33,943 nucleotides of DNA from Chitinophagales bacterium. GTDB lineage: Bacteria; Bacteroidota; Bacteroidia; Chitinophagales; Chitinophagaceae. The notes beneath the pieces were generated by a model. It was not told the DNA's origin, made no database searches, and saw only the letters and a list, made by a program, of their open reading frames with translations. This document shows positions 1 to 20,916 of the stretch, one piece after another. How positions within the stretch are numbered: the first letter of the stretch is position 1; each line of letters opens with the position of its first letter. The stretch lies in assembly GCA_015654695.1 (NCBI GenBank), contig JAATGJ010000031.1, forward strand, positions 1 to 33,943, given 5' to 3'. A program made the translations under genes and the position numbers.

Positions 1-410
1 AGTTTTGATTTGTATTTGAATACATAGTAAGTAGCCTGTGTGTTGCCGGCATTTTCAATGCCATGTTCATCACCGGGAATAGCATAAGCGATACTTCCTG
101 GTCCCATTATTTTACTTGTACTGGTTATCGTGATCTTCACCCGGCCCTCTTTCACGATGATCAGCTCTTCCTGGTCAGCATGTGTATGGGAAGTATGAGG
201 GGCTTTGCCCGGTTCTAACGTAGAAGTATGTACTTCAAATAAACTGAGGGAAGTGGTGCTCCCTTCCATTACCTGTCTTCGTATCCGTGTATCTTCTTTC
301 TTTGCTTCCAGGCTGTCCCAGCGATATACACGTGATGGCAACGAATCTGTTTTTTGTGCTGCCAGGGAAGACGTACTGATAACAAATGCTATGGGCAGGA
401 CGAACCTCAT
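1..410 (-). CDS. Exported cupin-domain protein (3' end beyond window)
   Basis: This gene is read on the minus strand from ATG at 408-410 and runs off the left edge with 136 codons visible. The N-terminus (MRFVLPIAFV, then a cleavage-like SLAAQ) is a signal peptide. The body has the small beta-barrel signature of a single-domain cupin: a motif-1-like H-T-S-H-T-H-A-D-Q-E-E stretch, then a glycine turn (VKEGRVKI), then a motif-2-like PGDEHGIEN. The histidines and glutamate could bind one metal ion. Its start lies one base after the stop of the upstream esterase gene (TAA-C-ATG), so it is the last visible member of the long operon. The family is too broad to name a substrate; a sugar-binding or isomerase-type role next to the oxidoreductases is possible but not shown. 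Confidence 0.8.
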   Translation of the reverse strand, partial: MRFVLPIAFVISTSSLAAQKTDSLPSRVYRWDSLEAKKEDTRIRRQVMEGSTTSLSLFEVHTSTLEPGKAPHTSHTHADQEELIIVKEGRVKITITSTSKIMGPGSIAYAIPGDEHGIENAGNTQATYYVFKYKSK

Positions 411-411
411 G

Positions 412-1494
412 TTACTTTGTTTTTTTAATGAATTGTGTATTGCCATATCGTTCCAGTTGAAACCCTTCGGGGTTACCGTTATTGGTTTTAAAATGAACAT
501 TAAAGTATTCAGATGTTGAATAAAAATCAGTTTCACTGGCGGAGTACAATGAGTATTTATCAGAAGGAGAAAAGTATAAGGTGAGGCTGCCGTTCTCATT
601 TTTCAATTCAATCTTATTTCCGCTGGCTGATTCATAAGTGCCGCTCAATTTATTCAGCAGGCCTGCATCAAGATTCAGTTTTGGTCTTTCAAATATGAAT
701 TGCATACCGCGACCAAATGTTTCGCTCTTGGTACCGGAGTGACCGGTATTCTCTAATATTTTTGATTTAATAGTTACCGATGTATATTTCCCCGTCGTCA
801 TTTGCGCAGCGAATTTTTCAAAGACCGGGCGGCTTCTTTCCACATCACCTATGGTCATATAGACCCGCACCGGTTTGGATAGTTTTTTCTGCGAAAATTC
901 TTTTTCATACTTATATAATACTTCCCTGTCCCAGCCAACAGCTGGACTGGCGGCTGCATAACCGGTGAACAGTTCTGGTTGTGTAAATAAAGTATATAGC
1001 GTAAACAATCCGCCTAATGAGCAGCCCATTAAAGACCTGTTGCCGGGGTCTGCTTTATAATTTGTTTCAATAAAAGGGAACAGTTCATTTTTCATGAAGG
1101 AAAGAAAATTATCAGCGCCGCCGCTTTGAGGCAGCCTGTTCTCTTTTGTAGGCGTATAATCTCTTGCCCGCAGGCTGTCAGGGTTTGGATGGACGCCACC
1201 CCATGTTACACCAACGATAATCAGTTCCGGAATAAAGCCATCAAAATAATGTTCACCATACAATGATTTTACTAATGGGAAATCCCATTGAGAATCCATC
1301 AGGTAAACAACCGGGTATTTCTTTGTACTGTTCTTATAATCACCAGGGAGTAAGATATGTAATTCATACTCCTGTCCTGTAATAATAGAAGAAGTTAGAT
1401 TTCTTATTTCAGAACCGGGAATAGTAACCCGTGGGTATTGCGCTAAACAATTAGCTGCATACATTAACAGAAAGAGGATAACCAGGCGTTTCAT
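412..1494 (-). CDS. Secreted alpha/beta-hydrolase, esterase-D/CE1-like
   Basis: A 360-residue protein with a signal peptide (cleavage near CLAQ, residues 16-19). Residues ~40-270 are an esterase-D-type alpha/beta hydrolase. YPVVYLMD (60-67) is the first core strand, and GCSLGG (157-162) is the nucleophile elbow with Ser159. The likely acid is Asp217 or Glu219 (GDVE), and His252 in NTGHSG is the catalytic base. About 85 C-terminal residues (276-360) form a separate beta-rich tail. Family members include feruloyl and acetyl-xylan esterases (CE1) and siderophore esterases; the xylan setting favours a carbohydrate ester, but the exact substrate is inferred. The start overlaps the stop of the upstream oxidoreductase gene as ATGA, showing tight translational coupling. 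Confidence 0.85.
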   Translation of the reverse strand: MKRLVILFLLMYAANCLAQYPRVTIPGSEIRNLTSSIITGQEYELHILLPGDYKNSTKKYPVVYLMDSQWDFPLVKSLYGEHYFDGFIPELIIVGVTWGGVHPNPDSLRARDYTPTKENRLPQSGGADNFLSFMKNELFPFIETNYKADPGNRSLMGCSLGGLFTLYTLFTQPELFTGYAAASPAVGWDREVLYKYEKEFSQKKLSKPVRVYMTIGDVERSRPVFEKFAAQMTTGKYTSVTIKSKILENTGHSGTKSETFGRGMQFIFERPKLNLDAGLLNKLSGTYESASGNKIELKNENGSLTLYFSPSDKYSLYSASETDFYSTSEYFNVHFKTNNGNPEGFQLERYGNTQFIKKTK

Positions 1495-2864
1495 TGTTTA
1501 TTTTTTAATGCTATTTCCAATGCTTTTGTCGTGGTATAATATTTTGACAGCATAGTAGGTACTTCCCATACAGGTATGTTATGGTTCTTAAAATAACCCA
1601 TATAATTTTCTGTCACCCTGGCAAAGTGTGATTCATGTCCTTCTTTGTATTTATCAGGAATGATTACTTCCCAGCCTTCTTCGGTTTCCTTCAACGATAT
1701 GCCTGGATATTTTGCTTTAACTGCTTTAAATATTTCTTCCATGGCTGCCGTTGTAAAATCCGGGTCACGCTTCGGTAAAATGTACAATACAGGTTTGTAT
1801 TGTTCTTTAACTCCCTGCTTTATCACAAGATCCGCTAACGTTCCTCTCATCAAAGAATAATGTGTGTCACTTCCGCTGGCGGTTTGGTATTCCCACACTA
1901 CAGACACTTTCGCATGAACACCTTTTATTGTATAATTGATCTCACCATTCGACCATACCTGCAATGTTGTATCATTCAGCTTATTTTTATCCAAAAAGGA
2001 AGGAACGTCATCCAGCTTAGTAATCGTTTTAAATTGTGTGGTTGTCATATTTGTGGGCCACCTTTTTGCAGTAAGCACCTCGATATCTTTTGTATAATCC
2101 AAACTTTGCTCCGGGAAACATTCCCATTGCACCAAGTCAACAAGGTGCGTAGTTACATCAGTTATCCCTTCACCTTGTTGCGAAGCATCCATAAACCAGG
2201 CCGGCCTTACTACTATATTACCTGAAACATTTTTATAAAAGTTATGATCACTTACCATCACTACAGCCGGGTTATCAACGGTGCCGGTATCCAAAGTCCC
2301 GAATATTTCAGGTATCATTGATAATTCTCGTTGCAGTATGCTTGTTATTTCAAAGCGTTCCGTCATAATATCATACAACAGCAGGTTTTTTTCCTTTGCA
2401 GTTTCAAAAGCCTTTATCAGCGTTTCAAAACCTTCGCTGGTAACAGCCATGGGTTTATCGGCCAGCACATTAAATCCTGCTTCCAGCGACCTGGAAATGT
2501 ATTCTGTCTTTTTCCGGTTGTTTCCTGCTATCACTACAACGTTCCCTTTTTTTTCAGCCAGCATTGTTTCGAAAAAATCATTACCCGAATAAATATTTTT
2601 TTTCCAGTGTGTGGGATTGTCTTTCCTGTTATTAAAAGCATTGATTCGTTCAAGGTGCAGCGTCAGGTCATTCCCTTCCGGTGCATATATATTCACTATT
2701 GAATCTACATTATCATACATGGTCTTTTGTACCAGGGCCGCATGGAAATGCCCGGGATCCAATGTAACCAGTTGAACAGCGAAATTGCTTTTCTCGTTTT
2801 TATCACCGGGGTTACAAGCCATAAACAATGCAGTTGTCAGACTCATCAAACATATTTTTTTCAT
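1491..2864 (-). CDS. Lipoprotein Gfo/Idh/MocA-like oxidoreductase (Oxidoreduct_C type)
   Basis: A 457-residue protein whose leader ends in a lipobox-like FMAC (Cys17), so it should be membrane-anchored outside the cytoplasm. The fold is that of Gfo/Idh/MocA dehydrogenases with the C-terminal domain known as putative oxidoreductase C-terminal. Where the classic GxGxxG loop should lie, the sequence reads DPGHFHAALV (36-45), with His39 and His41. The usual E-K-P motif appears as ADKP (135-138). VVIAGNN (110-116) matches the Rossmann strand before the nicotinamide site. The gene starts five bases after the stop of the Tat-exported relative and overlaps the esterase gene by four bases, so the three are probably co-translated. 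Cofactor and substrate are unknown. An outside location implies a tightly held NAD(P) or loss of redox activity. Confidence 0.8.
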   Translation of the reverse strand: MKKICLMSLTTALFMACNPGDKNEKSNFAVQLVTLDPGHFHAALVQKTMYDNVDSIVNIYAPEGNDLTLHLERINAFNNRKDNPTHWKKNIYSGNDFFETMLAEKKGNVVVIAGNNRKKTEYISRSLEAGFNVLADKPMAVTSEGFETLIKAFETAKEKNLLLYDIMTERFEITSILQRELSMIPEIFGTLDTGTVDNPAVVMVSDHNFYKNVSGNIVVRPAWFMDASQQGEGITDVTTHLVDLVQWECFPEQSLDYTKDIEVLTAKRWPTNMTTTQFKTITKLDDVPSFLDKNKLNDTTLQVWSNGEINYTIKGVHAKVSVVWEYQTASGSDTHYSLMRGTLADLVIKQGVKEQYKPVLYILPKRDPDFTTAAMEEIFKAVKAKYPGISLKETEEGWEVIIPDKYKEGHESHFARVTENYMGYFKNHNIPVWEVPTMLSKYYTTTKALEIALKNKQ

Positions 2865-2869
2865 GATTA

Positions 2870-4300
2870 TTATGCTTTAACGCTGTAAGGTTCACGTTGC
2901 GGTCTTGATAGCATAGCCGTTGCTTCCTTATCATTTTTAAATTCTTCTTTTGCAGGGTTCCAGTAAATTTTTCTTTTCAGCTTCATGGCGATATGGTGCA
3001 GCAAGCAAGCTGAGCAGGCACGATGCGCTTCTTCTACCGGTGCAATAGGGTTTTTATTATCCCTTATCGCTTCCAGCCAGTTGCCATGATGTTCTTTACT
3101 TATTTCAAAATGAAATTCTTTTTCCCCGATTACTGATGTAAGGATCTTAGGATCGCTGGCATCTATTTTTTTAGCCTGTGTAGTACCTCCACCGGGATCG
3201 CTTGATGTTACCTGGTAATCTCCCCTTGAAACAAATATCCATCCTTTCGTCCCTTCAAACTTTATCCCATTGGGCAATTCATTACTCACCACCATTTTTA
3301 CACCATTGGCATATAATGCTTCCGTAGTAAAAATGCCATGAACATCCCAGAGTCCTTCCACCGCAAACTCCGCTTTATTACTCCAAATTTCAACAGGGCC
3401 GCTGCGTTCCATTCCCATGCCCCAATGCGCGGAATCAATATGGTGGGCGCCCCAGCCCGTAATCATACCAGCGCCAAACTGTTCGCATCGCAACCAACCC
3501 GGTCTGCCATAACCCACCTGGGGGTGTACCCTGTCTTCTGTATAATAAACTTCCGGTGTTGATGCCAGCCACATATCATAATTCAGTGCAGGCGGAACAG
3601 GCATCTTTGTTTTATCTCCCCCGGGAGGATCGCCGGGCAGACCTACATACACCGTTTTTAAATCACCAATTCTGCCATTGCGAACTAACTCTGCTGCGTA
3701 ACGAAATTGCTCACTGCTTCGCTGCTGACTTCCTATCTGGAATTTCACACCGCTTTTTTGTACCACATCGCTTATAATCCTTCCCTCACCAATAGTAAGT
3801 GATGCCGGCTTTTGCATATAAGTATGTTTACCTGCACGGGCTGCAACCACGCCGATCATCGCATGAGTATGATCGGGAGTGCTGATCAGCACCGCATCAA
3901 TGTCTTTATTCTGCAGCAGTTCACGATAGTCTGTATATACTTTTACACCGTCAAATGGTTTACCCTCTCTTTTTGTATAATATTCATTCACGAGTTTTTT
4001 TCCGTCTTCCGCCCTGTTGGAATCAAGGTCACAAACAGCCGTTATCTGCGCATAATCATATTGCCACACACCCGGCATATCATGTATCCGGGATATACGT
4101 CCCGTACCTATTGCACCGATGTTGATCCGGTTACTGGGAGCATTCTTTCCGAATACACTGGCCGGAACGATTGATGGGAAACCCAGGGCAATAGAAGTTC
4201 CCAGCGCAGTTTTAAAACTGTTGTTGAGAAATTCCCTGCGACTAACGGTTGATTGTTTACCCCTTAGTCCGCCGGCTGGCGGAGTGTTTTTCTTTTTCAT
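2870..4300 (-). CDS. Tat-exported Gfo/Idh/MocA family oxidoreductase
   Basis: I start this 476-residue protein at ATG 4298-4300; the upstream in-frame TTG adds only three residues. A twin-arginine signal S-R-R-E-F-L (20-25) is followed by a hydrophobic stretch to ~residue 50. The Rossmann domain has GAIGTGRIS (62-70), an acidic strand end DLDSN (91-95), STPDHTH (140-146) and QKP (163-165) in place of the family's EKP. WGAHHIDSAHWGM (283-295) carries the histidines typical of the sugar-binding active site. Tat export suggests folding with bound NAD(P) before export, as known for Zymomonas glucose-fructose oxidoreductase. The leader contains an apparent inserted repeat encoding TPPAGG before the twin arginines. 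It follows DUF6807 after a 205-bp repeat-bearing gap. Substrate unknown; a xylan-derived sugar or uronate is a reasonable guess. Confidence 0.88.
   Translation of the reverse strand: MKKKNTPPAGGLRGKQSTVSRREFLNNSFKTALGTSIALGFPSIVPASVFGKNAPSNRINIGAIGTGRISRIHDMPGVWQYDYAQITAVCDLDSNRAEDGKKLVNEYYTKREGKPFDGVKVYTDYRELLQNKDIDAVLISTPDHTHAMIGVVAARAGKHTYMQKPASLTIGEGRIISDVVQKSGVKFQIGSQQRSSEQFRYAAELVRNGRIGDLKTVYVGLPGDPPGGDKTKMPVPPALNYDMWLASTPEVYYTEDRVHPQVGYGRPGWLRCEQFGAGMITGWGAHHIDSAHWGMGMERSGPVEIWSNKAEFAVEGLWDVHGIFTTEALYANGVKMVVSNELPNGIKFEGTKGWIFVSRGDYQVTSSDPGGGTTQAKKIDASDPKILTSVIGEKEFHFEISKEHHGNWLEAIRDNKNPIAPVEEAHRACSACLLHHIAMKLKRKIYWNPAKEEFKNDKEATAMLSRPQREPYSVKA
4258..4285 (-). repeat. Palindromic repeat inside the Tat leader coding sequence
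   Basis: Positions 4268-4283 form a 16-bp inverted repeat with perfect 6-bp arms TCCGCC/GGCGGA around a 4-base AGCC centre (minus strand). It encodes PPAGG, in a stretch read as TPPAGGLRG, within the n-region of the Tat signal. That stretch is much more G/C-rich than the A/T-rich bases around it. Short palindromes of this type recur in Bacteroidota genomes in my experience; only a genome search can prove it here. Confidence 0.55.
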
Positions 4301-4358
4301 AATTGACAATCGGTTTTATGATGATAAGATTTTATTACCAGCTTTCGTGCTACTATCG

Positions 4359-4502
4359 GCTTCGTTGCGACGCTTCGTTCATCTTTCTGTTCTTTATTCA
4401 GCAATGCATCACAGTTTACCTAAGGCGAAGAACAATTACATCTCGCAACGACGCAACGTGAGAAGCTTTTGTATTCGTTGCGACTTTGCATCGTTGCGTG
4501 AG
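4359..4502. repeat. Degenerate CGTTGCG inverted and direct repeats
   Basis: The gap between DUF6807 and the Tat oxidoreductase carries several copies of a CGTTGCGAC-like unit: direct at ~4363, inverted at 4442-4458 (CTCGCAACGACGCAACG), and direct again at 4476-4500. The last two can pair (CTCGCAACGA against TCGTTGCGTGAG with a two-base bulge). The unit resembles the degenerate 'CGCAAAGACGCAAAG' tracts I associate with Bacteroidota intergenic DNA. It could reduce readthrough into the distal genes. Confidence 0.6.
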
Positions 4503-4505
4503 TTA

Positions 4506-5747
4506 TTACTTTTTAATCTTCACTTCGGCAGGTATCGCAAAATACTGCCAGGCACTCTCCGCTTTTGCTGCATCCATCTTTCCATTGAACACAACCATTC
4601 GATATTTTAATGTATACGTCTTTCCCGGTTCTAATATCCAATCCTTATCTTTTGTTGTTGCAAAATTGGCAAACACATCCCCGCGTCCGCCATTTGCATT
4701 CTTATCCCAGATACGCAATGGTTCGGGATGATTAAAATTTTCAGGAGAAGATAACATCACTGCGCCTCCGGAATCATTACCCGGCAGATCTCCATATACT
4801 ATTATCCATCGTCCTTTGGTGCCATCGGTATTATCTCTTGTTTTTCCTTCCGAGGTCAGCATTTCAGAATTGTCTTTAGTCCAGAACTCCGTGGCCCGCC
4901 AACCAAAACCGGCATAACGATAGGCCACAATATGAAAAGGACTTTGCGAAGCGCAACTCATTTCAGATATAAAGTCCATGATATAATAATCACTATGTTC
5001 TTCCGGTTTGTAGATTCTTATCGTTTGGTTTTCATTTAAAGCTATCTTTTCACCCCCATCTTTTTTCAACACCACATGCTCATGCAATACTTTGATTTCA
5101 GAAAAAATAGTACCACTCGTTTGAGAGAGTAATTTGGCAAAGCGTACCGTTGCATTTTTTCCGCCGATATTCCAGAAATCTACGGTATCATTTTCAAACA
5201 AAACATGCGTCCATGGATTCCAGATGCCATAATGATGATAATGGTCTTTCGGCTGAATGCGGGTGATCTCCTGCCCATGCGGCGTCCACAACGGATGAAT
5301 GAAACCGCTTCTTCCGTACGCTGTATCAATTCCTGCTGGCGGGTACACTTTTTTATGAACATAACTCAGCAGGTTTTTATTACCGGCGCTTATAATATAA
5401 GCCCCATCTTTTTCGTTTACTGTTACTTGGTTGAACTTGCCCGGTGTACCTTTTATTAATTGGTAAGTTTGTTTTTTTTCTCCGCCAGCAGATTTTGTCA
5501 GCCACGATACTATTCTTTCATTGCCGGGTGTTACCTGGAAAGGAACCGGCATTTTCTGATCACCATTTACTTTTACCAATGACAATGATTTGTCCGGAAA
5601 AGAACTAATTCCTTTAAGACTCACATTTACCGGAATTTCAAGATCATTGGTTGCTGCCGGCAGGTTTACTTCAAAAGTTGCAATGACCTGGCCGGTACCT
5701 GTTAATGATGACATAAGAAATAAAATAAGGAGTGAATGACGTATCAT
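4506..5747 (-). CDS. DUF6807 (PmoA-like) exported protein
   Basis: A 413-residue protein with a signal peptide (MIRHSLLILFLMSSLTGTGQ). It matches the DUF6807 family, formerly labelled methane oxygenase PmoA by similarity only: SGFIHPLWTPHG (147-158) followed by DHYHHYGIW (168-176). His151, His157, His169, His171 and His172 make a conserved cluster that could bind metal or act in catalysis. RYAGFGWRATEFW (277-289) is a second conserved block. The family often sits beside Gfo/Idh/MocA genes, as here, and no biochemical activity is established to my knowledge. It starts 14 bases after the GH3 stop, so it belongs to the xylan operon. A role on an oxidised or acid sugar is inference; methane oxidation is not credible here. 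Confidence 0.85.
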   Translation of the reverse strand: MIRHSLLILFLMSSLTGTGQVIATFEVNLPAATNDLEIPVNVSLKGISSFPDKSLSLVKVNGDQKMPVPFQVTPGNERIVSWLTKSAGGEKKQTYQLIKGTPGKFNQVTVNEKDGAYIISAGNKNLLSYVHKKVYPPAGIDTAYGRSGFIHPLWTPHGQEITRIQPKDHYHHYGIWNPWTHVLFENDTVDFWNIGGKNATVRFAKLLSQTSGTIFSEIKVLHEHVVLKKDGGEKIALNENQTIRIYKPEEHSDYYIMDFISEMSCASQSPFHIVAYRYAGFGWRATEFWTKDNSEMLTSEGKTRDNTDGTKGRWIIVYGDLPGNDSGGAVMLSSPENFNHPEPLRIWDKNANGGRGDVFANFATTKDKDWILEPGKTYTLKYRMVVFNGKMDAAKAESAWQYFAIPAEVKIKK

Positions 5748-5761
5748 GCAAATTATTTTGT

Positions 5762-8392
5762 TTAGTTAATCGTCACAATTGCTTTTACCACGTTCGACGT
5801 TGTTTTTATTTTTGTGCCCGGTTGGCCGCCACCCACGCTGATCATTATTTTTCCTTTTCCTTGTTTCATCATTCCGTTATCATCAATGGTGGAAAGATCT
5901 TCCGGGCTTAATTGAAACTGCAGCACTTTACTTTCACCTGCTTCCAGGGCTATTCTTTTAAAACCTTTTAATGCTTTTAAAGGCGCTTTGATCGTTTTAT
6001 TTTCATTGCTTATATACAACTGTACCACTTCCTCACCATCCATTTTTCCCCTATTGGTTACCCTCACACTGACTGAAATTTTTTTACCGGCAATTGCAGT
6101 GGCAGGTACTTTCAACTGATCGTAGAAAAAGTTTGTATAGCTAAGTCCATAGCCGAAACCATACAAGGGATCGCCTTTGAAGTAGCGATAAGTACGATTC
6201 TCCATGGAATAACTATTGAAATCCGGGAGATCACTGTCACTTTTATAAAAAGTAACAGGCAATCTTCCTGCAGGGTTGTAATCACCAAACAAGACATCAG
6301 CAATAGCAGTGCCGGCCGATTGTCCGCCATACCATGCATTCACGATGGCAGGAATATTTTCCGACTCCCAGGGAAGCGCAATAGCGCTGCCTGTCATCAG
6401 GACAAATACAACAGGCTTGCCGGTTGCTTTTAATGTTTTTAATAAATCAGTTTGCACGGAAGGCAATAAAATAGATGTACGGTCACCGCCATTGAACCCG
6501 GGATAATCCACTCTCATTTCCTCGCCTTCCAGTTGTGGAGAAATGCCACCAACATATATGATCGCGTCAGCATCTTTGATCCGGTTCGCTAAAGCTGTAA
6601 AGTCGGTTCTCTCAAAATTACCAGCCCTCAATCGTATATTGGCTTTTCCTTCCGCCTGGAAATATTCAATCACTAATGTATAAGCGGAATCTTTCTTTGT
6701 ATTAAATCTATAAGTCCTGGCGCCAAACCGGTTCCTTGTCCAGGTATTGATTTCCTCCCTGCCATTTAATAGTAGCTTATAACCATCATCAGCATCCAGT
6801 TCAAGCGTGATATTGCCATCCCGGGTCGCAGTGAAGGTGGTGGTATAACGGGCGGAAAAATTATTCGCCCTGATATTTCCCACTACTGCTTCACCTTCCT
6901 GCCAGAAATGATCAATTTTATCTTCTGTCCGGGTCACTTCCGGCTCCCCCTTCAATTCTTTATTAGCATAGTATTCGGCTTTGAAACCCTGCTTGCCCTC
7001 ATACGAATATTGCTGGCTGACATCTGCGTACATCAGTAAAGTATCATTGGTAAAATTAATAGCTCTTTCAAACAGCACTTCCGCATTGTTGCCCAGTTTG
7101 TTTTTTATTCCCTGCAACGCTGTAACAATGTCGGATGGTATGCCGTTATAATTGCCCAGCACAGCAATACGATTATCCGCATTAGGCCCGACTACCGCGA
7201 TCTTCTTTATTTTTTTACTTAATGGTAAAATATTGTTTTCATTCTTCAGCAATACAATTGACTGCTGTGCCATCTTGAGTGAATGGGCTTTATGTTCAGG
7301 GCTTTCTAAAACAGAAGAAGTTGTTTGTGCATATTTAACAACAGACGGCGGGTCAAACATGCCAAGACGAAAACGGATGGTAAATAATCTTTTCAGCGAA
7401 ACATCAATTTGCGCTTCGGTGATCTTTCCGTCTTTCACGGCCTGCACCAGCGATTTGTAAGCATCGGTACCGCAATCAATATCCGTACCGTGTAGTACCG
7501 CATCCGCAGAGGCGCTGGCCGCATCGGGATGTGTTTTATGATTTTTAAAGAAATCATCTATCGCCCAGCAATCGGAAGTGACATACCCTGTAAACTTCCA
7601 TTGATTCCGGAGAATGTCCACCATCAGCTCATCGCTGCCGCAGCAGGGTTGTTTGCGGAATGCATTGTAGGCGCACATTACCCCGGCTACTTTCGCATGT
7701 ATTACTAATTCTTTGAACGCCGGCAAATAAGTATCCCACAGATCATAGTTGCTGACATCAGCATTGAATATATGCCGCGATGGCTCCGGCCCGCTATGCA
7801 CAGCATAATGTTTGGCGCAGGCTGCCGCTTTTAAATATTTCGGATCATCGCCCTGCAATCCTCTTACAAATGCTTTTGCCAACATTGCAGTCAGGAATGG
7901 ATCTTCACCGTATGTCTCCTGTCCGCGTCCCCAGCGGGGATCACGGAATATATTAATGTTGGGCGTCCAGTATGTTAATCCCAGGTATCTTTCATTGGTT
8001 CTGCCGAGTTCAATCGCTTTGTTATGAATAGCTCTTCCTTCCAGTGCCGAATAATCAGCCATGGTATAAAGTGAGTTGGTATCGAATGTGGCAGCCATTC
8101 CAATAGCTTGCGGGTATACCGTAACCCTGAACGGGGTTCTCGCCACACCATGCAGCACTTCATTCCACCAGTCATAAGCCTGGATACCTAACTTCGGGAT
8201 GGCGGGGGTCGAATTCAGCATCTGGGCTACTTTTTCTTCCAGCGTTAAACGGCTTACCACGTCATTAACCCTTTCTTCAACGGGTAATTTATAATTCCAG
8301 AAAGGAAGTTTATCTTTTTCAACCTGTGCCTTGCATACAATTGTAAAAAGTAAAGCAGAGCTTAACAGCAATGTTTGATGAACTATTTTCAT
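5762..8392 (-). CDS. GH3 beta-xylosidase/glycosidase with PA14 insert
   Basis: I start at ATG 8390-8392, which gives 876 residues and a clean signal peptide ending in CKAQ; the open frame continues 39 codons upstream only through a TTG. The GH3 N-domain spans ~35-345, with substrate-loop DPRWGRGQETYGEDP (151-165), KHY (194-196) and nucleophile Asp274 in VTSDCWAIDD. The GH3 C-domain begins near 375 and is split by a PA14 domain at ~466-592 (KAEYYANKELKG to IRLRAGNF). SPQLEGEEM (618-626) holds the probable general acid glutamate (Glu623 or nearby). A fibronectin-III-like domain (~770-876) ends the protein. This architecture is common in Bacteroidota beta-xylosidases and beta-glucosidases. With GH10, xylA and xylB nearby, periplasmic release of xylose from xylooligosaccharides is the best reading. 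Confidence 0.92.
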   Translation of the reverse strand: MKIVHQTLLLSSALLFTIVCKAQVEKDKLPFWNYKLPVEERVNDVVSRLTLEEKVAQMLNSTPAIPKLGIQAYDWWNEVLHGVARTPFRVTVYPQAIGMAATFDTNSLYTMADYSALEGRAIHNKAIELGRTNERYLGLTYWTPNINIFRDPRWGRGQETYGEDPFLTAMLAKAFVRGLQGDDPKYLKAAACAKHYAVHSGPEPSRHIFNADVSNYDLWDTYLPAFKELVIHAKVAGVMCAYNAFRKQPCCGSDELMVDILRNQWKFTGYVTSDCWAIDDFFKNHKTHPDAASASADAVLHGTDIDCGTDAYKSLVQAVKDGKITEAQIDVSLKRLFTIRFRLGMFDPPSVVKYAQTTSSVLESPEHKAHSLKMAQQSIVLLKNENNILPLSKKIKKIAVVGPNADNRIAVLGNYNGIPSDIVTALQGIKNKLGNNAEVLFERAINFTNDTLLMYADVSQQYSYEGKQGFKAEYYANKELKGEPEVTRTEDKIDHFWQEGEAVVGNIRANNFSARYTTTFTATRDGNITLELDADDGYKLLLNGREEINTWTRNRFGARTYRFNTKKDSAYTLVIEYFQAEGKANIRLRAGNFERTDFTALANRIKDADAIIYVGGISPQLEGEEMRVDYPGFNGGDRTSILLPSVQTDLLKTLKATGKPVVFVLMTGSAIALPWESENIPAIVNAWYGGQSAGTAIADVLFGDYNPAGRLPVTFYKSDSDLPDFNSYSMENRTYRYFKGDPLYGFGYGLSYTNFFYDQLKVPATAIAGKKISVSVRVTNRGKMDGEEVVQLYISNENKTIKAPLKALKGFKRIALEAGESKVLQFQLSPEDLSTIDDNGMMKQGKGKIMISVGGGQPGTKIKTTSNVVKAIVTIN

Positions 8393-8512
8393 TACAAAAA
8401 TTTTTATCTTGTCAACTTGTATTACTATTATTTTCATTCGTATTTCATAACGAAACTTTTGAATCCCCCGGTGCCCATCAAGTGTATTTATTTTTACGTG
8501 TTGAATCAATAC

Positions 8513-15208: not shown

Positions 15209-17782
15209 TTATTTCAATTTTGTTTCCGGCGGCCCCAGGTAGCTTTGCTTCACACCGCCAAAGTCCAGTACTAATTTTTGCAATACTACTCCCGGGTTCA
15301 CCATCCAATACTTCACGGCATGTTTGCCCGGTTTGCTGATAATATGTTCCGATGTTTTAATGATGATATTATTAGCTACCCATCCTTCCCATGTTCTTAC
15401 ATTGTTATCTTCTTTATTGATGCTGATGATCTGTGGCTGGTCATCATCTATTGATACGGCATATTGTAACCCCATTTCGGTATTAAGGAAATTAAGGGTA
15501 GGGGAGAAGTAAGCCATCAGTTTGAATGTACCAGCGCTGTACGTGTAAAATTCATATTGAAGATGCGGTGATCCGGCTGCTGGTTTTTGTGCAGCCGCCG
15601 TTACAGGGAAGGGCGTAATGGCCGACCCGGTTCTTCCATGATCGGGTAATATCTTCCAGGTAATGCCATTTGTATTGACAGCTTTTGTATAATGATTTGA
15701 TTCGATACCTATATGTTCTTCGAATTCGTAAAATATATTTCCTTTGCTGCGCCCGGAGATCTGGTACTCATTTGTCCGCGGTATTTTATAGGGCAGGTTT
15801 ACCTGTTCAACCATTGAATCGTCAGGTACATATTTCACCTCCGGCATTACTTGCCTGTTTGGTTGTTGCCAATACGTATAACCAATATGCGCCTGGTCCA
15901 TCATGTGGTTCCATTTGTTATTAGCTATGGCATGATACTGAAGACTGATCAGCGAATCGTTAGTGTATGCCTTTTTTGCTTTATCGGCATATTTATTGGC
16001 AATTGGCCATTTATAGGAATAGGCCTCTTTGTTTTTCGCAACAGATGTATATAATCCCTGCAGGTTCGCGCAGGCTTTTGCGGGATGGAGTACCAATTGA
16101 TAATAAGCGTCCCGGTATTCAGCAGGGAGATCCGTGTTTATTTTCTCTGCTCCGGCCAGTAGGTTATTGTATTCAGTAGTTACACTTTCAGCTTCATTAT
16201 AGTTTTGGAGGCTATATGTATTTGCATCCAGCAATTCCGGTTTTCGCCTGCCATTATATTTTGTGTACTTCAATATAATACCAGCGATATCTTTTCCATA
16301 CTTATCTCCGAATTGTGAAGCTGCCCATTGTTCCGTATATTTCTGCAGGTCATCAGCACTGATCTTTGCCGGGTTCCATGCATAATCTAAAAAGAACGAA
16401 ATAGGGAATTCCATCGGTTTTATATCACCCACATTCACTATCCATATTTCTCTAGCTTTATATTCCCATGCCAGGTGCATCTGTTCCCACACTCTTGTAA
16501 TGGGATTTGTATTAAGCCATTTATAATTTCTTGGCCCTCCTACATAATCAAAATGATAATAGATGCCATACCCACCTTTACGTGGCTTCTCACCAGGTTT
16601 AGGAAGCTTACGGATATTGCCCCAGTTATCATCGCATAATAGTAAGGTGACATCATCCGGCACCCTCATACCTTTGTCATAATAATCCTGCACTTCTTTA
16701 TACAATGCCCATAACTGTGGTGTTGCTGATGCGGGTTGCTTTGTTACTTCCTCAATTATTGCACGCTGATCTTTTACAATTTTTTCTAATAAGGCTGTCG
16801 CTGTTTCTCTTGACATCGGTTCGTCACCATCACCCCGCATACCCACGCTGACGATCTTTTCATTGGTAGCTCTTTGCATACCACTCCGCCAGAATTCTTT
16901 CAGCCGGACTTCGTTACTGTCATAATTCCATTTTCCTTTTCCATATCTTCTCCATTCATCATGTGCCCTCATTAAGGGTTCGTGGTGTGATGTGCCGATA
17001 ACAATACCGTAATCATCCGCTGATTGTATATTCAATGAATCATCATCGTAAAAAGCATTGCCCCACATCGCTGGCCACAGGTAGTTTGCCTTTAAGCGGA
17101 TCATCAGTTCAAATACTTTTTCATAAAAGTGATGATTAAAGCCGCCAAATTTTTCTTTACTCCACCCGGAAAGGGCAGGGGCTTCGTCATTAATAAAGAT
17201 GCCACGGTATTTTACTTTGGGTGAATCGCTGAGCGTCGTTCCTTTCTTACAGTATAATGAGGGTCTCTTTTTGACAGGTACATCCGCCCACCAATACCAG
17301 GGCGATACGCCGATCTGCCGCGAAATTTCAGCGACGCCATAAGCAGCGCCTCTTCTGTCGCTGCCTGCGATGACCAATGCGTTTTCAATTCCTTTAAAAG
17401 GGTTGGTAACAGTTTGAATAAGGTAGGCTTCCCATTTATTCTTTATTTTATCAATAGCGATCTTCTTCTGCTGAACCAGTTGTTTGATATAAACTGATCT
17501 TTCCGCGGCGCCGATAATGATAATAGTTTTTGCAGATGAGGGAAGTGTATTTGAAAGCGATAGCTTTTTACCGGTTACCGCTTCAATATCCTGTTGCAGC
17601 AATGAAGCTGACTTTTGAATAAGTGCAGGATCGTCTGTGTCAGTAATGATAACAGCATGGCTGTTTGCAGAAACGAGTGTAAAACCGCCCGTTTGTGGTT
17701 TATCACTGATCAATTGTTGCGCCTTAGCTGGCACAGAAAGCCAGGCCGAAAAAAATAGCAGCAATACATTTCCTTTATACAT
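15209..17782 (-). CDS. GH115 xylan alpha-1,2-glucuronidase
   Basis: I use ATG 17780-17782 (857 residues), since the frame extends two codons further only through TTG. A signal peptide ends near AKAQQ. The GH115 features include GSDRRGAAYGVAEISRQIG (~140-158), WYWWADVPV (162-170), FINDEAPALSGW (196-207), LKANYLWPAMWGNAF (230-244) and GTSHHEPM-like GTSHHEPL (263-270), then RGDGDEP and DNWGNIRKLP in the later barrel. GH115 removes (4-O-methyl)glucuronate from internal xylose units, complementing GH67, which needs it on the non-reducing end. The gene is 25 bp upstream of GH43. A hairpin with a T-tract lies before it, suggesting attenuated transcription from the SDR gene. Confidence 0.93.
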   Translation of the reverse strand: MYKGNVLLLFFSAWLSVPAKAQQLISDKPQTGGFTLVSANSHAVIITDTDDPALIQKSASLLQQDIEAVTGKKLSLSNTLPSSAKTIIIIGAAERSVYIKQLVQQKKIAIDKIKNKWEAYLIQTVTNPFKGIENALVIAGSDRRGAAYGVAEISRQIGVSPWYWWADVPVKKRPSLYCKKGTTLSDSPKVKYRGIFINDEAPALSGWSKEKFGGFNHHFYEKVFELMIRLKANYLWPAMWGNAFYDDDSLNIQSADDYGIVIGTSHHEPLMRAHDEWRRYGKGKWNYDSNEVRLKEFWRSGMQRATNEKIVSVGMRGDGDEPMSRETATALLEKIVKDQRAIIEEVTKQPASATPQLWALYKEVQDYYDKGMRVPDDVTLLLCDDNWGNIRKLPKPGEKPRKGGYGIYYHFDYVGGPRNYKWLNTNPITRVWEQMHLAWEYKAREIWIVNVGDIKPMEFPISFFLDYAWNPAKISADDLQKYTEQWAASQFGDKYGKDIAGIILKYTKYNGRRKPELLDANTYSLQNYNEAESVTTEYNNLLAGAEKINTDLPAEYRDAYYQLVLHPAKACANLQGLYTSVAKNKEAYSYKWPIANKYADKAKKAYTNDSLISLQYHAIANNKWNHMMDQAHIGYTYWQQPNRQVMPEVKYVPDDSMVEQVNLPYKIPRTNEYQISGRSKGNIFYEFEEHIGIESNHYTKAVNTNGITWKILPDHGRTGSAITPFPVTAAAQKPAAGSPHLQYEFYTYSAGTFKLMAYFSPTLNFLNTEMGLQYAVSIDDDQPQIISINKEDNNVRTWEGWVANNIIIKTSEHIISKPGKHAVKYWMVNPGVVLQKLVLDFGGVKQSYLGPPETKLK

Positions 17783-17803
17783 CTTCAATTTTTAGATGTC
17801 CTT

Positions 17804-17898: not shown

Positions 17899-18651
17899 TT
17901 AAAATCCAACCGAATTACCTCCATCCACGGGAAGCACCACGCCAGTTATATATCTGGCAGCATCCGATGCAAGAAATAAAGCCGCTTCACCAATATCATC
18001 TGGTTTCCCCATATATCCCATGGGTGTCCTGCCAAATACTTTTTGCTTTCTTTCCGGATCTGAATTCAACGCTTTTGCCGTCATAGCTGTTTCAATAAAT
18101 CCCGGTGCGATGGCATTGATGCGGATACCTTTGGGTGATAGTTCTACTGCCATTGCCCTTGTCATACCATCAATAGCTGTTTTGGAAGCGCTGTAGGCAA
18201 TTACTTTGGGTAAGCCGTATTGCGCAGCCATCGAACTGATGTTGATAATGGAACCGCTTCCTTTTTTCAGCATTTCTTTGACCACTTCTCTTGATATGGC
18301 AAATACAGAGCACAGGTTGGTGGTAATTACCTGCTGGAATTCTTCATCCGTCACTTCTGTAAAATCTTTTTTCATATTGATGCCCGCATTATTGACCAGT
18401 ATATCAATCTGTCCAAATTTCGACATGACCTGTTCAATCAATGCGGGAATAGAAGCCAGGTTGCTTACATCACAGATCATGGGGTGGCATAGTGGTCCTA
18501 ACTGTGAGGTAGCCTTTTTCAATTTCTCTTCATCGCGGCCTACTATTACTGTTTCAATTTTATCCTGTGTAAATTTTTCTGCAATAGCCAAACCAATACC
18601 TGATCCGCCACCTGTTACTATAGCTACTCTTTTTTGATTACTTGTATTCAT
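17899..18651 (-). CDS. SDR-family dehydrogenase/reductase
   Basis: A 250-residue cytoplasmic classical short-chain dehydrogenase. TGGGSGIG (13-20) is the cofactor loop, NNAG (87-90) the structural motif, Ser140 with YSASK (Tyr153/Lys157) the catalytic set, and PVDGG (241-245) the usual C-terminal block. Arg39 after the second strand suggests NADP(H), tentatively. It resembles the gluconate-5-dehydrogenase/3-ketoacyl-reductase-like group, and sequence alone cannot assign a substrate. It is the only clearly cytoplasmic enzyme in the minus-strand run and lies between two alpha-glucuronidase genes. A uronate or fructuronate/mannonate-type reduction is therefore attractive, but this is inference. 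There are 93 bp before it and 116 bp after it. Confidence 0.85.
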   Translation of the reverse strand: MNTSNQKRVAIVTGGGSGIGLAIAEKFTQDKIETVIVGRDEEKLKKATSQLGPLCHPMICDVSNLASIPALIEQVMSKFGQIDILVNNAGINMKKDFTEVTDEEFQQVITTNLCSVFAISREVVKEMLKKGSGSIINISSMAAQYGLPKVIAYSASKTAIDGMTRAMAVELSPKGIRINAIAPGFIETAMTAKALNSDPERKQKVFGRTPMGYMGKPDDIGEAALFLASDAARYITGVVLPVDGGNSVGF

Positions 18652-18744: not shown

Positions 18745-20916
18745 CTATCCATTTCCCGGCGCATAGGGAAAACTTAATCCTTTATAGTACTCCAGTGTCT
18801 GATCAGGTTTTTCATAGCCGGCGGGTATGGGCATTTGGGAAAATGTCTGAAAATACAACAAACAGGCATTCCGCCACCATATTGCTTCTTTCACTTGTAT
18901 TGCCAGCAACATTTTTACCTGTTCAAATCTTGCTTTATCTACATATTTCTCCAGTTTATTCCATTGATGCTGCACGGCCCGGATGGAGTCCACACCGGAA
19001 TAATATTTATAGCATAGTTCATTCCACAAGGTTCTTCCTGATCTCATTTTGTAATCCCACTTAACATGATGAAACCATAGCAGGTATTCATCAGGACAAT
19101 TATTTATATCTTTCCATTGATCGCTTACTTCTTTTGCATATTGCGACAGGGCGTTACTTCCTGTCGCTGTTCTGTCGAAACCTATCCCAATGCTATCGGC
19201 TTTATGAAAATATACGGGATTCCAATCGGCTCTTCCTGCGTTACTAACCCAGGGAGCTGGTCCATAGTGATGGCCAGTGCCCATAATATGATTCAATCCA
19301 AGAGGCGTCATGTAATTCACCAATGTTTCATGAGACGACATCATGATCCTTTTTACTGCGGTGATATAGGTTTTCTCATTGGTGAATGTCTGGCGTATCC
19401 ATTCATCAGCTATCTGTGATGAAGTGAGATCATGATCCCAGGCTAATCTTCCATACGCATACCAGTTAGCCTGCGCAAAAGGATGACCTGTCCAGTTGCG
19501 ATCGCTTCCGATATTCGCTACACCTGCCATGGCAGAAATAGAATAATTATCTAAAGAACCATCTACAACTTTCGCAACAGTTGAACCTGCTTGTCCGGCA
19601 GGCAGGCCTTTACCTTTTGAATAGGTATCTGCATCCAATGCTTCTTTAAACATTGTGGACAGGTAAACAAGGCTAGTTGCTTGTCCAAGATATTCCTGGG
19701 TGACCTGGAATTCCATCATCAATGGTGTTTGCGGCATCGCACCGAATAAAGGATGAAAAGGTTCCCTCGGTTGAAAATCAAGAGGGCCGTTCTTTACCTG
19801 TAACAATACATTCTTTCTGAATTGACCGTCTAAAGGTTTGAATTCACTATAGGCCTGCTTAGAACGGTCATCAGGTGTTTCATTGCTATAGACAAATGCC
19901 CGCCACATTACCATCCCACCATGCGGCGCCACTGCGTCTGCCAGCATATTGGCGCCGTCAGCATGTGTTCTTTTATAGTTTTGCGGTCCGGGTTGTCCTT
20001 CTGAATTGGCTTTTACCAAAAAGCCGCCGAAGTCAGGAATGTATTGATATATCTCATCTGCTTTTTTCTTCCACCACTCCCGCACTTGAGTATCTAAGGG
20101 ATCAGCGGTTTTCAATCCTCCTGTTTCAACAGGGGCGCTGAACCTTGCTGTGAGATATACTTTAATGCCATAGGGACGAAATACGTTGGCCAATGCAGCC
20201 ACTTTTTCCAGATACATTTTTGTCAGCACTAATGCATTGGCATTTACATTGGTTAATACTGTTCCGTTAATACCGATGGATGCGTTTGCTTTTGCATAAT
20301 CTATATAGCGCTGGTCAATATAACCGGGAAGTTTATGCCAGTCCCAGATAGAAGAACCGGCATACCCTCTTTCTACTGTCCGGTTAAGATTGTCCCAGTG
20401 GTTCAGGATGCGGTTTTGAATTTTGGGAATCGAAACGATATTGAGTTTGTCAATGGGCTGTTGTGTTTGCAGCAAACGGAGGAAATGAAATACTCCATAT
20501 AAAACGGCCACATCAGTATTGCCCGCTATTGCGATAACTTTTTTTCCATTGAAGCGGCTAGTAGTAATGAAAAAACCTTCTTTCCCTAATTTTTCCAATT
20601 CAAACAAGGGAAAAATAGTTCCTATGACGGCAAGGCTTTCCGCTGTGCCTGCAACGATAGTGCCGTCCACTATATTAGTCAATGAAGCAATATTCTTTCC
20701 TAATAAACCTTTCAGACCGTTTTGCAATTCCTCTTTAATGATAACAGCGGTTGCTGAATTACCACCTGCTATCATACCGTTGATGCCAGTCTTATATTTT
20801 GTTAATAAGGCCTTATCAGATACCGCGTCATAACGGAGCCATAGCCTGTAACCATCTTCAGCAAGCAAGCAGCCTGTGATGATAAGCATAATAAAAAGAG
20901 AAATTGTTTTTTTCAT
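18745..20916 (-). CDS. aguA: GH67 alpha-glucuronidase
   Basis: A 723-residue protein with a signal peptide (to ~residue 20, CLLAEDGY), then the GH67 opening DGYRLWLRYD (21-30). The catalytic barrel shows GGFLVKANSEGQPGP (297-311) with Glu306, NGPLDFQPREP (376-386) with Asp380, and MMEFQVTQEYLG (400-411) with Glu402. These correspond to the three active-site acids known in Cellvibrio GlcA67A. The helical C-domain includes TGHHYGPAPWV and FHHVKWDYKM. It releases 4-O-methylglucuronate from the non-reducing end of xylooligosaccharides made by GH10. Residues 438-444 (LPAGQAG) interrupt the family's usual K-G-K-G-S-T-V-A-K run and come from a palindromic repeat. It starts 28 bases after the second LacI gene. 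Confidence 0.95.
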   Translation of the reverse strand: MKKTISLFIMLIITGCLLAEDGYRLWLRYDAVSDKALLTKYKTGINGMIAGGNSATAVIIKEELQNGLKGLLGKNIASLTNIVDGTIVAGTAESLAVIGTIFPLFELEKLGKEGFFITTSRFNGKKVIAIAGNTDVAVLYGVFHFLRLLQTQQPIDKLNIVSIPKIQNRILNHWDNLNRTVERGYAGSSIWDWHKLPGYIDQRYIDYAKANASIGINGTVLTNVNANALVLTKMYLEKVAALANVFRPYGIKVYLTARFSAPVETGGLKTADPLDTQVREWWKKKADEIYQYIPDFGGFLVKANSEGQPGPQNYKRTHADGANMLADAVAPHGGMVMWRAFVYSNETPDDRSKQAYSEFKPLDGQFRKNVLLQVKNGPLDFQPREPFHPLFGAMPQTPLMMEFQVTQEYLGQATSLVYLSTMFKEALDADTYSKGKGLPAGQAGSTVAKVVDGSLDNYSISAMAGVANIGSDRNWTGHPFAQANWYAYGRLAWDHDLTSSQIADEWIRQTFTNEKTYITAVKRIMMSSHETLVNYMTPLGLNHIMGTGHHYGPAPWVSNAGRADWNPVYFHKADSIGIGFDRTATGSNALSQYAKEVSDQWKDINNCPDEYLLWFHHVKWDYKMRSGRTLWNELCYKYYSGVDSIRAVQHQWNKLEKYVDKARFEQVKMLLAIQVKEAIWWRNACLLYFQTFSQMPIPAGYEKPDQTLEYYKGLSFPYAPGNG
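19586..19606 (-). repeat. 21-bp near-palindrome inserted in-frame in GH67
   Basis: The minus strand reads CCTGC, then CTGCCGGACAA, then GCAGG: outer arms CCTGC/GCAGG with further imperfect pairing around a CCGG core. It encodes seven residues, LPAGQAG, between KGKG and STVAK, which are normally contiguous in GH67 as I know the family. The length is a multiple of three, so the frame is kept. Similar palindromes are widespread in Bacteroidota genomes. Confidence 0.65.

Follow-up and report, generated by a model that had tools for sequence, protein, structure and literature searches.

The glucuronoxylan operon examined here continues beyond its GH3 gene with genes for a DUF6807 protein and two Gfo/Idh/MocA oxidoreductases (Gfo1 and Gfo2), a trio that is a recurrent unit across Bacteroidota and whose neighbour genes point to glucuronate catabolism. 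We give about an even chance to the reading that the operon encodes an exported, probably redox-neutral, oxidation-cleavage-reduction route for glucuronosyl sugars, which would here be derived from xylan. If so, this would be the first role for DUF6807, a widespread Bacteroidota family of unknown function, and non-hydrolytic steps would be added to glucuronoxylan breakdown; the placement of DUF6807 in an exported glucuronoside redox route is directly testable.

The window, i.e. the whole stretch of 33,943 nucleotides that was analysed, is all of contig C130. Coordinates and profile scores (Table 1) confirm the gene order proposed in the initial annotation, in which GH3 is followed by DUF6807, a Tat-signal Gfo, a lipoprotein Gfo, an esterase and a cupin. 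GH3, whose true start is likely an ATG later than 8509, lies 14 bp from DUF6807; Gfo1 and Gfo2 are 5 bp apart, Gfo2 and the esterase overlap by 4 bp, and the esterase and the cupin are separated by 1 bp. The repeat-bearing gap between DUF6807 and Gfo1, pointed out in the same annotation, was also recovered: its repeats were located, and all other spacings in this tight stretch are of 14 bp or less. Pieces of the gap were found at 8 further places in the genome; it is a dispersed genomic repeat that probably lies outside the function. Upstream, on the same strand, are genes for a deacetylase, CE15-like proteins, SASA, GH10, GH43, GH115, an SDR and GH67, and no UxuA gene was found in the window. 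The cupin is incomplete because the window is the entire contig and ends inside this gene; two relatives (L036 and L038) are 258 aa long and show two cupin stretches each. Judging by its sequence, the esterase is probably an ordinary xylan esterase.

Table 1. Genes and intergenic gap of the module, with neighbouring context genes, in the window.
Feature	Coordinates	Strand	Basis
Cupin, exported type, first half of a ~258-aa bicupin	3..410	-	Truncated by contig end; relatives compared
PF00756 esterase with signal peptide	412..1494	-	Pfam; BES/IroE-like; feruloyl esterases among matches
Gfo2, Gfo/Idh/MocA with Oxidoreduct_C (PF16490), lipobox FMAC	1491..2864	-	412.8 bits, cut-off 27
Gfo1, Tat-signal Gfo/Idh/MocA oxidoreductase	2870..4300 (ATG at 4300)	-	PF01408 60 bits, cut-off 24; SRREFL
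Gap, 205 bp, inverted and direct repeats	4301..4505	.	Repeat search
DUF6807 (PF14100), long type, N-terminal beta domain and signal peptide	4506..5747	-	219.7 bits, cut-off 27
GH3	5762..8509	-	Pfam
GH115 alpha-glucuronidase (context)	15209..17788	-	Pfam
SDR, between GH67 and GH115	17899..18651	-	Orthologue comparison, 53-81% identity
GH67 alpha-glucuronidase (context)	18745..20916	-	Pfam

The survey across Bacteroidota bears out the expected co-occurrence of DUF6807 with the oxidoreductases. DUF6807 is present in 54 of the 395 genomes of the phylum scan, in which it lies within 10 kb of 23 of the 35 PF16490 places (22 of the 30 PF16490 genomes), while 0.35 places were expected; in the 147 genomes of the family scan, the corresponding figure is 15 of 32, when random placement predicts 0.2. 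Proximity so far above random placement rules out a chance grouping of the module genes. To describe neighbourhoods, we used a family sample of 40 stretches (31 PF16490 places besides the window and nine hand-chosen long-type DUF6807 places), a phylum sample of 40 stretches hand-chosen, mostly among the better-scoring, from 106 listed PF14100 places outside the family of the window, and 80 named loci, the top-ranked among 509 relatives retrieved with a query alignment, which lean towards the module because that alignment was built from module members. Genes were called as longest ORFs and phmmer score thresholds were set by eye. Among 90 Gfo1 loci (duplicates L073, L074, L090, L123 and L140 removed, further duplicates possibly remaining), the same-strand run, defined by gaps of up to 300 bp, includes DUF6807 in 78 cases and Gfo2 in 64, but the esterase in only five and the cupin in 16. 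Thus, of the exported redox module initially annotated, the trio is the recurrent part and the esterase and cupin are optional. Distances between DUF6807 proteins correlate with those between their Gfo1 partners (Mantel r 0.55, 77 pairs, none of 2000 permutations as high, the species tree not being removed). DUF6807 and Gfo1 occur together in 58 of the 80 named loci and in 17 of the 40 phylum-scan stretches, so that DUF6807 also exists without Gfo1, as in Hymenobacter loci L098, L103, L108 and L116, where it accompanies a cupin. Conversely, L054, L055 and L060 carry Gfo1, Gfo2 and a third Gfo without DUF6807, and in L054 this set sits in a full GH67/GH115 operon.

The wider core of the module includes ThuA, which belongs to the same-strand run at 24 of the 90 Gfo1 loci and is fused to DUF6807 in seven stretches. 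One locus (L050) combines ThuA, Gfo1 and Gfo2 without DUF6807, with D-mannonate oxidoreductase and UxaC on the same strand. A Pfam scan of 20 of the 21 window genes (all but xylose isomerase), on a contig that ends inside the cupin, gave no match to ThuA (PF06283) and none to PF06439 (DUF1080), which is present in 13 stretches elsewhere in the same genome.

Xylan and uronate genes are associated with the module in part of the loci. In the family scan, GH67 lies within 30 kb of five of the 86 DUF6807 places (0.6 expected) and of five of the 32 PF16490 places (0.26 expected), so few that specificity of the module for xylan is rejected as a general statement; at the genome level, GH67 is found in 21 of the 31 PF16490 genomes versus 29 of the 116 others (p 2e-5). 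At least one gene among GH67, GH115, UxuA, SDR orthologue, GH10, GH43, CE15 and XylA is found at 14 of the 37 Gfo1 loci from the family and phylum scans versus one of 40 SusD control loci, which were hand-picked among the matches listed in 18 module-bearing genomes (in L222 SusD is near the stretch edge, and the L193 and L197 stretches are shorter). Restricting the count to uronate genes (GH67, GH115, UxuA or SDR orthologue) gives 11 of 37 versus one of 40 (p 0.001). Within the fetched stretches, GH67/GH115 alone are not enriched (1/31 versus 0/40, p 0.44) and UxuA alone gives p 0.05. The proposed tie to glucuronoxylan operons is thus real relative to the SusD control, but the module is not mainly a xylan add-on. 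Same-strand runs at the 90 Gfo1 loci contain GH3 in 15 cases, GH10 in seven, CE15 in seven, GH115 in six, GH43 in five and GH67 in one. In genera other than that of the window, the module does share a same-strand run with xylan genes, as a member of a glucuronoxylan utilisation operon.

Individual loci illustrate the uronate link. In L153, two genes come after Gfo2 at gaps of 2 and 1 bp, one for D-mannonate oxidoreductase (321 bits against a cut-off of 281) and one for UxuA, which also passes its cut-off; L158 carries GH67 on the far side of a regulator from the module, and L160 a TRAP transporter within the module run. The window SDR is orthologous (53-81% identity) to SDRs adjoining UxuA or Gfo2 in other module loci. 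All 15 SDRs with at least 53% identity to it adjoin GH67, UxuA, Gfo2 or DUF6807, a pattern that arises partly by construction, as nearly all searched loci were fetched around module genes; the others listed reach at most 41%, and no SDR at 53% was found in the 40 SusD control loci. Of the two substrates initially put forward, glucuronate is therefore favoured by the neighbour genes, while lignin-carbohydrate fragments have only the CE15-like genes of the operon in their favour.

The nearest solved folds to Gfo1 are the AL3 glucoside-3-dehydrogenase (8tdh, 8tdf) and then DgpA, with AAOR at rank 11, GFOR from rank 30 on and the GH109 structure 2ixa at rank 39. The closest solved sequences are likewise glucoside-3-dehydrogenases and DgpA, before AAOR and GFOR. 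This proximity suggests a 3-dehydrogenase type. A twin-arginine pattern (R[RK].F[LIMV] within the N-terminal 60 residues, found by pattern matching alone) is present in 77 of 89 Gfo1 proteins. BT_2158_fam is the best of eight NCBIfam families matched, and Gfo1 falls outside it because it scores 128.6 bits against a cut-off of 750. For Gfo2, the nearest solved chain is 4oo3 (E 2.6e-151), and a lipobox-like pattern occurs in 51 of 80 relatives. The predicted model of DUF6807 (pLDDT 93.8) is a galactose-mutarotase-like supersandwich, nearest to a PL26 lyase, which makes the protein a candidate cleaving or isomerising partner; fold matches have ~10% identity and TMq up to 0.55, with an rmsd of about 9 A for the long alignments. 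Within DUF6807, H171, H172 and R284 are invariant and E300 is nearly so. A viral fold library gave three matches (E up to 0.001, the best to a phage tail fibre) with low TM-score, which were set aside. Similarly, neither context nor fold supports a methane oxygenase, PmoA being the old name of PF14100 that persists in annotation. The available parts of the full-text literature naming the family or its accession give no function for DUF6807.

In the route that we favour, Gfo1, Tat-exported and presumably NAD(P)-bound, would oxidise a ring hydroxyl, most likely at C3 of a glucuronosyl or 4-O-methylglucuronosyl residue. Elimination or hydrolysis of the activated keto-glycoside would fall to DUF6807, which elsewhere is accompanied by or fused to ThuA, and the Gfo2 lipoprotein would reduce the keto-uronate, thereby returning the hydride. 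The uronate would then enter the cell and proceed through UxaC, mannonate oxidoreductase (the SDR) and UxuA, with xylose handled by XylA/XylB. In this genome, the substrates would be oligosaccharides released by the surrounding xylanases and esterases.

Several known systems resemble parts of this scheme. Bacteroides have a periplasmic 3-keto-glycoside pathway of the BT2156-BT2160 type. Of these proteins, BT2158 is a glycoside 3-dehydrogenase and BT2157 a DUF1080 3-ketotrehalose hydrolase (PMC11300592, PMC9007349). The likeness lies in the exported Gfo/Idh/MocA dehydrogenase, BT_2158_fam topping the NCBIfam matches of Gfo1, but the window has DUF6807 (with ThuA elsewhere) where DUF1080 would be, and uronate genes surround the module in part of the loci. 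Alistipes AL3 and DgpA are closest to Gfo1 in fold and sequence, but with just 16-20% identity over structural alignments. The rhizobial ThuA/ThuB disaccharide pathway also combines a ThuA-family protein with a Gfo/Idh/MocA oxidoreductase, whereas the module has two Gfo proteins and DUF6807, and the window lacks ThuA. PL26 exo-rhamnogalacturonan lyase and galactose mutarotase share a fold class with DUF6807, a likeness at the fold level. Zymomonas GFOR, an exported Gfo/Idh/MocA enzyme with a bound cofactor, and GH109 are among the structural matches of Gfo1, which shares a Tat signal pattern, but they rank below the 3-dehydrogenases, and we know of no DUF6807-like partner for either. A search of literature titles for PF16490, ThuA/Gfo in PULs and glucuronide 3-dehydrogenase returned nothing relevant-looking.

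The trio might instead act on free sugars, DUF6807 supplying the anomer as a mutarotase or epimerase, Gfo1 forming a lactone through C1 oxidation, as GFOR or aldose-aldose oxidoreductase does, and Gfo2 reducing a second sugar. We consider this rather unlikely. The fold of DUF6807 is equally compatible with a mutarotase, its class including galactose and hexose-6-phosphate mutarotases, AAOR and GFOR are close to Gfo1 by fold, and at one DUF6807-free locus, L047, Gfo2 is accompanied by an SGL/gluconolactonase-type protein together with a dihydroxy-acid dehydratase. However, glucoside-3-dehydrogenases and DgpA outrank both enzymes, and ThuA fusions would be unexpected for a mutarotase. In addition, 14 of the 21 loci with UxuA or SDR have none of GH3, GH10, GH43, GH67 and GH115, the only hydrolases covered by this check, so that another cleaving agent may be needed (in L139, one of these loci, Gfo2 is followed by a GH2-type protein). 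It is highly improbable that the role is auxiliary or structural and involves no redox catalysis, with the oxidoreductases serving for binding and their Rossmann domain being vestigial. The glycine-rich loop of Gfo2 is altered (GHFHAA in 64 of 80), which makes its cofactor binding unsure, but the superfamily residues G65 and G67 (glycine-rich loop) and K164 (KP motif) are invariant in 46 Gfo1 sequences, and TGWGxHHxD (89/89 Gfo1), DKPM (76/80 Gfo2), DV[TGM]TH (68/80 Gfo2) and DHxHH (88/88 DUF6807) are conserved.

It is unlikely, to a slightly greater degree than for free sugars, that the substrate is broad or another glycoside (as for BT2158-type enzymes, which accept several disaccharides) and the location in xylan operons opportunistic. 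This would fit the 64 of 90 Gfo1 loci without GH67, GH115, UxuA or SDR orthologue in the fetched stretch, 52 of which lack xylan and xylose genes as well, the DUF6807-Gfo1 pairs of L076, L082-L084, L086, L118 and L137, which have no neighbour matched by the query set, and the trio with cupin alone in Hymenobacter loci L087, L091 and L095. That the window operon already carries GH67 and GH115 speaks against the favoured route. Against an opportunistic location, the Gfo1 clade of the window (seven members) has xylan genes in all seven stretches, the module is flanked by glycoside hydrolases and esterases in L039, L131 and L141, and uronate context is spread across the Gfo1 tree, with at least 20 label changes (200 shuffles: mean 23.5, lowest 17).

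A bolder version of the glucuronosyl route, which we offer tentatively as less probable than the route itself, is that DUF6807, acting with ThuA, would be the first of a new class of enzymes, either lyases or hydrolases, that cleave keto-uronosides. How 4-O-methylglucuronate is processed once GH67/GH115 have acted is, to our knowledge, poorly known, and a narrow literature search found nothing on it. In this version, SusCD loci that combine DUF6807-ThuA-Gfo1-Gfo2 with uronate genes and have no recognised glycoside hydrolase would be complete hydrolase-free glucuronoside utilisation loci, and in xylan operons the same chemistry would act on GH67/GH115 leftovers such as 4-O-methylglucuronate, the methyl ether being lost by oxidation and elimination.

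We confirmed that in the window the DUF6807–Gfo1–Gfo2 unit (a PF14100 protein, a Gfo/Idh/MocA protein with a Tat signal, and a PF16490 Gfo lipoprotein) is built into a glucuronoxylan operon. Gene calls and profile matches bear out the gene list of the initial annotation, in content as well as in coordinates. All genes from GH67 through the cupin lie on the minus strand, with 14 bp between the end of GH3 and DUF6807, 5 bp between Gfo1 and Gfo2, a 4-bp overlap between Gfo2 and the esterase, and 1 bp between the esterase and the cupin. Pieces of the repeat-bearing gap between DUF6807 and Gfo1 were found at eight further places in the source genome (5.4 Mb, 187 contigs), and this gap was thus treated as a dispersed repeat. 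As the window is an entire contig (C130), the operon leaves its low end within the cupin gene, here the first half of a bicupin with weak solved relatives. The esterase is BES/IroE-like, with feruloyl esterases among its matches. The module had been described as appended to the xylan operon; it is indeed part of such operons, but not only at their end. In three other neighbourhoods (L039, L131, and L141), the trio lies on one strand between glycoside hydrolases and SASA/CE15 esterases, and is thus integral to them. In the Gfo1 tree, the window copy falls within a supported clade of seven, all from stretches with xylan genes. The source genome carries a single UxuA, adjoining a GH10-like gene.

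Coordinates of features in the window and in other fetched neighbourhoods (L numbers)
Feature	Location	Strand	Remarks
DUF6807 (PF14100)	4506-5747	-	
Gap DUF6807/Gfo1	4301-4505		205 bp; repeats, including inverted copies of TCGTTGCGA
Gfo1	2870-4300	-	Tat signal
Gfo2 (PF16490)	1491-2864	-	
Window SDR	17899-18651	-	between GH67 and GH115
Third Gfo/Idh/MocA gene	L054:6657-7832		before Gfo1–Gfo2
Third Gfo/Idh/MocA gene	L055:6183-7340		before Gfo1–Gfo2
Third Gfo/Idh/MocA gene	L060:1769-2926		before Gfo1–Gfo2
Second DUF6807 of the source genome	L235:1-2328		contig C64; short type, preceded by a distant Gfo/Idh/MocA gene
Gfo2 with sugar-acid genes	L047:5843-9560		no Gfo1 or DUF6807

Among 147 genomes of the family, PF14100 was detected in 61, PF16490 in 31, and GH67 in 50. 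At 15 of 32 PF16490 places, DUF6807 is no more than 10 kb away, versus 0.2 expected under random placement, an association beyond chance for these two families. In the phylum scan (395 genomes), PF14100 is present in 54 genomes, including all 30 that carry PF16490, and the two lie within 10 kb in 22 of these 30 (23 of 35 places). In raw counts, which include effects of genome size and shared ancestry, GH67 occurs in 21 of 31 family genomes with PF16490 and in 29 of the 116 lacking it; for PF14100, the corresponding figures are 34 of 61 and 16 of 86. A Planctomycetota contig from a Sedimentisphaerales MAG (L104) carries GH115, DUF6807, Gfo1, and Gfo2 together, which suggests cross-phylum transfer or a binning error.

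We read neighbourhoods at 40 family-scan places, 80 named loci (the best 80 of 509 relatives), and 40 phylum-scan places, and counted the core in 90 non-duplicate Gfo1 loci, a run being on the same strand with gaps of at most 300 bp. These runs contain DUF6807 in 78 cases and Gfo2 in 64, followed by SusC (29), ThuA (24), cupin (16), GH3 (15), SDR of any kind (12), SASA (12), SusD (11), CE15 and GH10 (7 each), GH115 (6), GH43, esterase, and UxuA (5 each), and GH67 (1). The link on the DUF6807 side is looser: of the 80 named loci, 58 contain both long-type DUF6807 and Gfo1, as do 17 of the 40 phylum stretches. In several loci DUF6807 and Gfo1 stand as a bare pair, four from Hymenobacter combine DUF6807 with cupin but lack Gfo1, and three loci (L054, L055, and L060) combine a third Gfo with Gfo1–Gfo2 without DUF6807, and are counter-examples to the mechanism proposed below. 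The third Gfo of L054, a locus within a GH67/GH115 operon, is near solved chains 3u3x and 2p2s. DUF6807 and Gfo1 distances are correlated (Mantel r 0.55, 77 pairs; none of 2000 permutations as high). Loci with ThuA group together on the Gfo1 tree (7 changes versus a mean of 26 in 200 shuffles), so forms with and without it are mostly separate lineages; in seven phylum-scan stretches (L154-L157, L161, L163, and L171), DUF6807 and ThuA form a single open frame. PF14100 matches also lie within open frames of about 1270-1360 aa (G261:C280, G449:C1, G488:C1:395518, G512:C60, and others). Distant Gfo genes occur near DUF6807 in L186, L187, and L190-L192 and, together with the L235 pair, indicate that DUF6807–Gfo pairing reaches past the trio.

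Three lines of evidence point to a tie between the module and glucuronate. Of the 37 Gfo1 loci from the two scans, 11 have uronate genes (GH67, GH115, UxuA, or window-type SDR), versus 1 of 40 SusD control loci, picked by hand in 18 module-bearing genomes (p = 0.001). With xylan and xylose genes added, the count is 14 of 37 versus 1 of 40 (p = 7e-5), and 38 of 90 when all Gfo1 loci are taken against the same 1 of 40. GH67/GH115 alone are weaker (1/31 versus 0/40, p = 0.44), and UxuA alone gives 5/31 versus 1/40 (p = 0.05). In the fetched loci, 15 relatives of the window SDR share 53-81% identity with it, and every one lies beside GH67, UxuA, Gfo2, or DUF6807, an association partly by construction since nearly all searched loci were fetched around module genes; the remaining relatives among the matches listed reach at most 41% identity. 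As judged by identity, one SDR type does link GH67, UxuA, and Gfo2 settings. Finally, in distant relatives, uronate catabolism genes directly follow the module. For example, D-mannonate oxidoreductase and UxuA, both above cut-off, lie 2 and 1 bp after Gfo2 in L153, and in L160 a related SDR stands at a distance of 8 bp, accompanied by a TRAP transporter. L050 carries ThuA–Gfo1–Gfo2 without DUF6807, with UxaC and D-mannonate oxidoreductase (315 bits, cut-off 281) on the same strand, and in L158 GH67 stands on the far side of a regulator from the module. Xylose isomerase and a sugar kinase adjoin LacI, DUF6807, SusCD, Gfo1, and a second DUF6807 in several Bacteroidales loci. In L047, Gfo2 accompanies dihydroxy-acid dehydratase, SGL/gluconolactonase, and FAA hydrolase near GH115, a set resembling an oxidative route for sugar acids. 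The uronate label lies dispersed across the Gfo1 tree, with 20 changes against a mean of 23.5 and a minimum of 17 in shuffles. The earlier interpretation, an exported redox-like module acting on glucuronate side chains or lignin-carbohydrate fragments, is borne out in part and narrowed to a recurrent exported unit with a significant glucuronate tie; this tie is not universal, as 64 of the 90 Gfo1 loci have none of the four uronate genes in the stretch.

Fold and sequence support a predicted dehydrogenase step for Gfo1. Among 89 relatives, the Tat pattern is found in 77, TGWGxHHxD in all, and KPAS/KPTS in 83. The AlphaFold2 model (pLDDT 82, pTM 0.81) ranks the Alistipes glucoside-3-dehydrogenase AL3 (8tdh, trehalose-bound, and 8tdf) above DgpA and aldose-aldose oxidoreductase, then GFOR and GH109, and a profile search again places AL3 and DgpA on top. 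The best NCBIfam family, BT_2158_fam (glycoside 3-dehydrogenase), has a cut-off of 750 bits; Gfo1, at 128.6, is similar to it without being a member. For Gfo2, solved chain 4oo3 is a close relative with no function named; of 80 sequences, 68 have DV[TGM]TH, 76 DKPM, 64 the glycine-rich loop GHFHAA, and 51 a lipobox-like pattern. A sequence search gave no solved relative of DUF6807 (best E 0.098). Its model (61 sequences; pLDDT 93.8, pTM 0.91) matched PL26 exo-rhamnogalacturonan lyase in Foldseek (E 5.7e-7, TMq 0.54), followed by beta-galactosidases, galactose mutarotase, and hexose-6-phosphate mutarotase. DHxHH is present in 88 of 88 sequences and 19 columns are invariant in 61, a degree of conservation that an active site would be expected to show.

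In the best-supported reading, to which we give about an even chance, Gfo1 would make a keto-glycoside from a glucuronosyl substrate, DUF6807 (with ThuA in other loci) would cleave or rearrange it, and Gfo2 would reduce the keto-uronate, with bound cofactor completing the cycle. For DUF6807 and Gfo2, the assigned steps draw on position and conservation and on an analogy to the BT2157/BT2158 systems described in PMC9007349 and PMC11300592. The leading alternative would be a system acting on free sugars, in which DUF6807 serves as a mutarotase. None of GH3, GH10, GH43, GH67, and GH115, the five families searched, is in the stretch in 14 of 21 loci with UxuA or SDR; if no other hydrolase serves there, cleavage of the glycosidic bond must fall to the module, which is suggestive only (in L139, one of these 14, a GH2-type protein follows Gfo2). 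The keto-glycoside route would be a form of non-hydrolytic chemistry already known, and would make a first function for DUF6807 plausible.

A literature search, with most subscription papers outside its reach, found no paper on the DUF6807–Gfo1–Gfo2 set. In the papers searched, DUF6807 is mentioned by name in one, as part of a DUF count, and the accession PF14100 in two, among them PMC10291797. In one published metagenomic operon, a PF14100 gene accompanies the gene for a dehydrogenase-HEAT-cytochrome protein that reportedly hydrolyses lactose. The source genome contains 13 matching stretches of PF06439 (DUF1080, 3-keto-disaccharide hydrolase family), so the organism probably makes wide use of keto-glycoside chemistry.
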